NCBI GenBank assembly: GCA_024720975.1
Contig: JANJXX010000001.1
Location: forward strand, 346,811-409,838
DNA: 63,028 bases
Reading direction: 5' to 3'
Origin: Candidatus Panguiarchaeum symbiosum
Lineage (GTDB): Archaea; Asgardarchaeota; Njordarchaeia; Njordarchaeales; Panguiarchaeaceae
The notes beneath the pieces are model-generated. The model had not been told where the DNA came from, made no database searches, and saw only the letters and a list, made by a program, of their open reading frames with translations. The translations under genes and the position numbers were made by a program. Below are positions 47,785-49,300 of this stretch, piece by piece; position 1 is the stretch's first letter; each line of letters starts with the position of its first letter.

Positions 47785-49300
47785 AGGAGGTGATCCGCCC
47801 GCACCTTCCGGTACGGGCACCTTGTTTCGCCTTACGCCCCCTCCCAGCCTCTACCTTCGACCCGCCCCAGTAGAAACACACTAGGTGCTTCCACCGGAGC
47901 AGGCTTCAGGGAGAGGCCGGTCGGGTGCGGCGGCGGGCAGTGAGTGCAAGGCCGAGGGACGTATTCACCGCGCGCTGGTGACACGCGGTTACTATGCATT
48001 CCATGTTCACGGCGGCGAGTTGCAGCCGCCGATTCCAACCACGAGCCGGTTTACCGATTACCTCCCCCTCTCGGGGTTGGAACGGTCTGACCGGCCCCCT
48101 GTAGCCCGTGTGCAGCCCGGGGGATTCGGGGCACACTGACCTGCCGTCGTCCGCTCCTTCCTCCGGCTTGTCGCCGGCAGTCCCCCTACTGTTCCCCGAG
48201 ACCCGAGAGGATCTCGGAGGCAAGTAGGGGCGCGGGTCTCGCTCGTTGCTGCACTTAAGCAGACACCTCACAGCACGAGCTGACGACGGCCGTGCACCAC
48301 CTCTCAGCTACTCCGGCACCGTATTTAGCGGGGCCATCATTGAGCTGTCGCCCCCGGTGAGGTTCCGGGCGTTGAATCCAATTAAGCAACAGGCTCCACG
48401 CATTGTAGTCGACCCCCGCCTAAACCTTTCAGTTTCAGCCTTGCGGCCGTACTCCCACGGCGGCCCGCTTAACGGCTTCCCTTCTGGCGCGGCAACGCCA
48501 CTTAGGCGTTGCCACACCTAGCGGGCATCGTTTACAGCCGGGACTACCCGGGTATCTAATCCGGTTCGCTCCCCCGGCTTTCGTCCCTCACCGTCGGAGC
48601 CGTTCTGGCCGGACGCTTTCGCCACCGTTGGTCCTTCCGGGGTTAGGATTTCACCCCTAGCCCGGAAGTACCTCCGGCCTCTCCCGGTCCCTAGGTCTGC
48701 AGTAACCGTGGCCGTCCCGACCTTAAGAGCCGGGCTTTCACCACGGTCATGCAGACCCGGCTACGGACCCTTTAGGCCCAGCAATAACCGCGACACTCGG
48801 GGAGCTGGTTTTACCGCGGCGGCTGGCACCAGCCTTACCCTCCCCTTATTCCCCGACCTGTTTACAGTCGGGAAAAGCCTCCCTCTCGGGAGGCACGCGG
48901 GCTCACCCCGTCGCGGTTTCCCGCATTGCGGAGGGCTCCCGACTGCTGCAGCCCGTAGGCCTAGGCCCCTTGTCTCAGTGGCCTTCTCCGGGCCCCCGCT
49001 TACACGGCCCGTACCCATCATCGGCTAGGCGGGCCGTTACCCCGCCTACAACCTAATGGGCCGCCGCCCCGTCCTCGGGCGGGACAAAGGCGCCCCTTTG
49101 TCCCCTTTCGGTGCGGAGGGGTTCCACCATTCCGCACCTATGGAGGATTGAGCCCAGTTTCCCGGGGTTATCCTCCTCCCGAGGTTCGGTTGGCGACGTG
49201 TTACTGAGCCGTCCGCCACGCCGCGGGATCGCGCGGCGTTCGGCTTGCATGTCTTAAGCTGAGCCCGCCAGCATCGCGGTCCGGCAGGTTCAACCGGTAT
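47785..49300 (-). rRNA. 16S ribosomal RNA, unlinked and divergent
   Basis: Small-subunit rRNA, about 1.52 kb, very GC-rich. Its 3' end reads GGATCACCTCCT (47785-47796, complement), the anti-SD. The 530 loop (GTGCCAGCCGCCGCGGTAA) and 790 loop (ATTAGATACCCGGGTAGTCC) are standard. The 5' end reads CCGGTTGAACCTGCCGG where archaea normally have TTGATCC. Several near-universal positions differ, three of them by compensatory pairs (see findings), so it looks like a working gene rather than a decayed copy. Ends are estimated. Confidence 0.95.

Follow-up and report, generated by a model that had tools for sequence, protein, structure and literature searches.

Compensated changes at near-universal core positions of a 16S rRNA from a Njordarchaeales genome, alongside altered uS12 and 23S rRNA

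The U1406-U1495 mismatch and U1498 of 16S rRNA, like the PNSA loop of ribosomal protein uS12, are textbook constants of decoding, and a 16S rRNA gene in which such letters have changed raises the question of whether it serves a working ribosome or is a degraded or misassembled copy. Such a gene lies in the window analysed here, meaning the whole stretch of 63,028 nucleotides from the genome of Candidatus Panguiarchaeum symbiosum. An initial annotation, made by eye, had proposed that the gene is functional and rapidly diverged, with compensatory changes at near-universal pairs. A MAFFT alignment of the window 16S with E. coli rrsB and 24 phylum-mates, using E. coli numbering, returned identical bases and coordinates at every position that the annotation had named (17, 918, 921, 1396, 1400, 1406, 1408, 1495 and 1498). 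The gene and its flanking stem are placed as follows.

47785..49300, minus strand: 16S rRNA gene, full length (RF01959 model positions 1-1478, 1311.1 bits)
49359..49383, minus strand: pre-16S processing stem, 5' arm, 25 bp, perfect complement of 47757-47781
47757..47781, minus strand: pre-16S processing stem, 3' arm, 25 bp, perfect complement of 49359-49383

A complementary processing stem flanking the gene is expected of archaeal pre-16S rRNA, and the two arms supply one here. In the covariance-model check that the annotation had proposed, the archaeal SSU model RF01959 matched the gene from end to end, and the changes at conserved pairs were largely of the compensatory kind. With the reference set of conserved pairs taken from the Rfam structure and the relatives (179 base pairs), 26 differ in the window 16S, 21 of them changed on both sides and still paired, three changed on one side and still paired, and two broken; with the reference limited to full-length sequences, 17 of 155 differ (13 double and paired, three single and paired, one broken). 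Because 21 of the 26 changes are double and keep pairing, they are not the product of chance. The canonical share of model pairs in the Rfam structure is 94.1%, the highest among all compared sequences, and the helix 44 region folds much better than its shuffles (z = -6.9). Bases G530, A1492, A1493, A1518 and A1519 are unchanged in the alignment to E. coli rrsB, and the 3' tail, CACCUCCU, is intact. The kept pairs, the fold of helix 44, the 25-nt arms and the intact key bases and tail together make a pseudogene or sequencing error unlikely.

The gene comes from a single MAG assembly (1.36 Mb in 29 contigs, 81% complete, the 16S contig being 410 kb long), and the assembly of the same-genus MAG holds no 16S, circumstances that would leave room for a pseudogene, an assembly chimera or a sequencing error. 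Against any of these stand the double compensated changes across the molecule, the matched stem on both flanks and the top-ranking canonical pairing, as well as an adjacent 23S rRNA that groups with the order and a neighbouring gene of the same genus, so that an artefact of this sort is most improbable. The neighbour, a Ras-like GTPase gene at 53916-55610, is matched best by a sequence of the same-genus MAG, at 54% identity, and the contig is accordingly of this lineage. A second, ordinary 16S, which the annotation had named as grounds against its own reading, was not found in the genome (81% complete), the copy at 47785-49300 standing alone. Rapid divergence, also part of that reading, is borne out by trees, in which no sequence of the set lies farther from the root than the window 16S and the long 23S branch matches the 16S branch. 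Judged from its sequence, 47785-49300 is a working, fast-evolving 16S gene, which would presumably be expressed and decode normally.

The changed bases fall in the central pseudoknot and in helices 27, 28 and 44, at coordinates given by the alignment.

49289, minus strand: A17, which pairs with 918 in the central pseudoknot; E. coli and every aligned relative have U here
48421..48424, minus strand: U918 (48424), U919 (48423), U920 and A921 (48421); 918 pairs with 17 and 921 with 1396, and 919 has also changed, from A to U
47930..47943, minus strand: U1396 (47943), U1400 (47939), C1406 (47933), G1408 (47931) and C1409; end of helix 28 and 5' strand of decoding-end helix 44
47827..47834, minus strand: U1491, A1492, A1493, G1494, G1495 (47830), C1496, G1497 and A1498 (47827); 3' strand of decoding-end helix 44
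48457 and 48430, minus strand: helix 27 pair 885-912, G-U to U-G (alignment and pair analysis)

The U1406-U1495 mismatch has become a Watson-Crick C-G pair, and pair 1409-1491 reads C-U. Both A17-U918 and C1406-G1495 lie outside the nested Rfam model, and pairing there rests on homology with E. coli; A1498, U919 and U1400 are without a pairing partner that would explain the change.

How unusual these changes are differs from site to site, and the annotation's description of them as alterations at near-universal positions holds for only some. A17-U918, U919, C1406-G1495 and A1498 occur in none of the 24 aligned phylum-mates. G1408, which had been likened to the eukaryotic base, is ordinary for the phylum, being present in 21 of 21 relatives with data, and was dropped as a notable trait. 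Nor is U1396 unique to the window 16S: a pattern scan of one genome per GTDB species returned at least 118 U1396 loci, which among the matches listed belong mostly to Patescibacteria, Campylobacterales and DPANN archaea. A921 accompanies U1396 in 88 of the 89 listed genes with a readable 921 (61/62 and 27/27 in two batches), and the A921-U1396 swap is a recurrent, strictly covarying exchange rather than a departure from near-universal bases. These CPR, Campylobacterales and DPANN genes share the covarying helix 28 pair with the window 16S, but among the matches listed they retain U1406-U1495 in 117 of 117 loci with data and U1498 in all but one, U919 being a further difference. Swaps at 17-918, like those at 921-1396, recur in CPR and DPANN; SR1/Absconditabacteria among the listed loci have C17-G918.

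Pattern searches of 228 phylum genomes found the ordinary 1495/1498 motif in 97 and, for the kinds of alteration searched, an altered motif within a 16S in the window genome only; such patterns would miss alterations combined with further changes in the 1495-1498 motif. Three other genomes with an A1498 motif and one with a non-U1495 motif were rejected, their matches not being 16S, and among viral contigs the G1495/A1498 motif gave 19 matches, none of them in a 16S. One published study treats the U1406-U1495 mismatch as universal, with the mitochondria of trypanosomes as the sole exception (PMC3101183). The rare members of the set, on the sequences compared, are C1406-G1495, A1498, A17-U918 and U919, seen in one MAG assembly.

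The annotation had looked to related genomes for the same pairs, and for the rare sites none was found in the relatives compared. The same-genus MAG offers no 16S for comparison. In G002, a MAG of the same order, the two ends of the 16S lie on separate contigs, and the flanking sequences of the two pair with each other in a stem of 20 bp. These ends carry the ordinary U17, U1495 and U1498, but U1491 as in the window 16S; the fragments do not cover 918 and 1406. Since G002 is ordinary at 17, 1495 and 1498, those positions changed after the families split, and A17, G1495 and A1498 are, as far as these sequences indicate, family-level changes at most. The ordinary 16S of another genome, G009, was set aside as proof of an ordinary order, its bin being 12% contaminated and its 23S only 69-72% like those of the order. 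The rRNA genes of G009 (L007 and L159, on G009:C160) look foreign to the order.

Two further components of the translation core are altered more widely in the order, the first of them a protein that contacts the decoding bases.

G000:C25:41665-41994 (L273), in the window genome, outside the window: uS12 gene, KQPNSA to RKPTGA and PGVR to PGVK

Within the order the uS12 loop reads RKPTGA in the window genome (G000) and G008, RKPCSG in G002, G006 and G007, and RKPCSA in G003. Outside the order, 27 sequences were aligned, and the loop reads PNSA in 23 of them, PHSA in three and PSSG in one. The PNSA motif lies near A1492/A1493 and has been called universally conserved (PMC4224418). Hyperthermophilic archaea are known to carry a lysine-to-arginine change in uS12, which increases accuracy when introduced into eukaryotic RPS23 (PMC8570412). 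This K60R variant places arginine at the same lysine of KQPNSA as in the window genome, where the next residues are altered too (RKPTGA), a combination not described in the passages of that study considered here. The window genome has a reverse gyrase gene, and its rRNA is about 65% GC, whereas the remainder of the window is at about 40%, which together indicate hyperthermophily; the Njordarchaeales have been described as hyperthermophilic and as having reverse gyrase (PMC10307638). The 16S introns, Ras-like GTPases and genome sizes seen in the phylum are those of a probable Asgard group.

The second altered component is the 23S rRNA.

43951..46954, plus strand: 23S rRNA gene, diverged (RF02540, 2565.6 bits)
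46135, 46564, 46565 and 46568, plus strand: 23S C2059, U2499, C2500 and C2503, respectively (alignment positions)

In the tree, the 23S rRNA of the window genome and that of G007, from another family of the same order, share a long branch with support of 100. Three MAGs of the order (the window genome, G007 and G002) share the peptidyl-transferase loop changes C2499U, U2500C and A2503C, and two of them, the window genome and G002, have A2059C as well. Positions 2059, 2500 and 2503 are conserved at 98-100% in a published table (PMC7345174). A GC-poor contig in the bin of a phylum-mate, G131, also has the 2499/2500/2503 motif and a Pacearchaeota locus has part of it, so it arose more than once, recurring in DPANN-like sequences. 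The first of these (G131:C72:1-3768, L215), an exact match to the motif, was rejected as probably foreign to its bin, its GC-poor, very divergent LSU fragment being about 51% identical and its contig 3.8 kb long. Because G002 is ordinary at 17, 1495 and 1498, the changes in uS12 and 23S predate those three, and helix 44 probably changed only after the protein and the 23S rRNA had done so.

Selection for resistance to ribosome-targeting antibiotics of neighbouring organisms might be proposed as the cause of the altered bases: C1406-G1495, G1408 and A1498 would hinder aminoglycoside-type drugs, and 23S U2499, C2500, C2503 and C2059 lie close to where drugs act in the peptidyl-transferase centre and the tunnel. 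In favour of this explanation, hygromycin B resistance maps to 16S 1406 and 1498, and haloarchaeal anisomycin-resistance mutations to the equivalents of 23S 2499 and 2500. M. smegmatis with a C1406-G1495 pair survives and shows high resistance to 4,6-aminoglycosides (PMC3101183). Among the peptidyl-transferase drug mutants studied in T. thermophilus are changes at 2059, 2500 and 2503 or next to them, although U2500C, A2503G and A2059G conferred no tiamulin resistance there (PMC7345174). Compensated changes run throughout the 16S and 23S rRNAs, also at a distance from the drug sites, and no antibiotic source is known, all of which leaves resistance a very unlikely cause.

A less specific alternative is that the rRNA is simply evolving fast, the decoding-centre changes having arisen by chance and without any link to uS12. 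Other fast lineages exist, among them the 16S of a phylum-mate, L018 (G042:C2:630352-631803), which, like fast DPANN rRNAs, has very many compensated changes, including a pseudoknot swap of its own, 18G-917C. Its unique changes at universal 16S sites number 45, against 31 in the window 16S, and the recurrence of 921-1396 and 17-918 swaps in CPR and DPANN likewise fits generic evolution. L018 nonetheless keeps its decoding-centre bases, and the functional core takes 15 of the 31 unique changes in the window 16S against seven of 45 in L018, an enrichment that is suggestive, the core set having been picked post hoc. The uS12 decoding loop, moreover, has changed in the same order, though before 1495 and 1498. 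Chance alone is on this evidence rather unlikely.

The best account, and a highly probable one, is that the translation core of a hyperthermophilic archaeon, whose sole known 16S is a working one, has drifted in a concerted and compensated way. The helix partners 17-918, 921-1396, 885-912 and 1406-1495 would have been exchanged together, keeping the fold while near-universal letters changed. The uS12 loop on A1492/A1493 has likewise gone from PNSA to PTGA in this lineage, and the 23S rRNA has changed at 2499, 2500 and 2503. Fixation may have come about by compensatory drift, perhaps with a contribution from selection for thermostability or accuracy. This suggests that part of a supposedly fixed ribosome core is able to drift as a unit.

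The closest known parallel is found in the mitochondria of kinetoplastids (Leishmania, Trypanosoma), which likewise have a Watson-Crick C1406-G1495 in place of U-U (PMC3101183), with no pair at 1409-1491 in Leishmania. Theirs is an organelle ribosome, whereas here it is the main and only known ribosome of the cell, with A1498, A17-U918 and an altered uS12 in addition. What is new in the window genome is C1406-G1495, A1498, A17-U918 and U919 beside an altered uS12 loop, 921-1396 and G1408 being known already. Tentatively, no main ribosome of a cell may have been known before to combine a Watson-Crick pair at C1406-G1495 with A1498, and the one encoded here would match these with a rebuilt accuracy loop in uS12 and an altered peptidyl-transferase loop. 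If so, natural evolution is able to rewire the decoding core and the catalytic core jointly, and accuracy and drug sensitivity may have shifted as a result. A cellular exception in which RNA and protein have altered together offers a natural experiment on which features of the accuracy centre are indispensable. The changes also hit common 16S primer sites (the 8F, 926, 1392 and 1492 regions), and because they fall inside these sites such organisms would be under-counted in amplicon surveys; a literature search for a primer-mismatch precedent in N. equitans returned no match.

The layout of the rRNA locus differs from that of relatives such as G012, in which 16S and 23S are in tandem. At 43951-49300 the 16S and 23S genes are convergent, with their 3' ends together and a tRNA-Ala(UGC) gene (47110-47184) between them, and an inversion may have split the rRNA operon of the window genome. 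Near the 23S gene lies a gene for the ribosome rescue factor Pelota (41742-42842), beside genes for eIF2-alpha, uL2 and RNA polymerase subunit D. Elsewhere in the window, an open reading frame of 648 aa (33212-35158) has no NCBIfam or Pfam match, and the 564-aa product of the GTPase gene at 53916-55610 joins an N-terminal Ras-like GTPase domain to a long C-terminal part and occurs mainly within the order.
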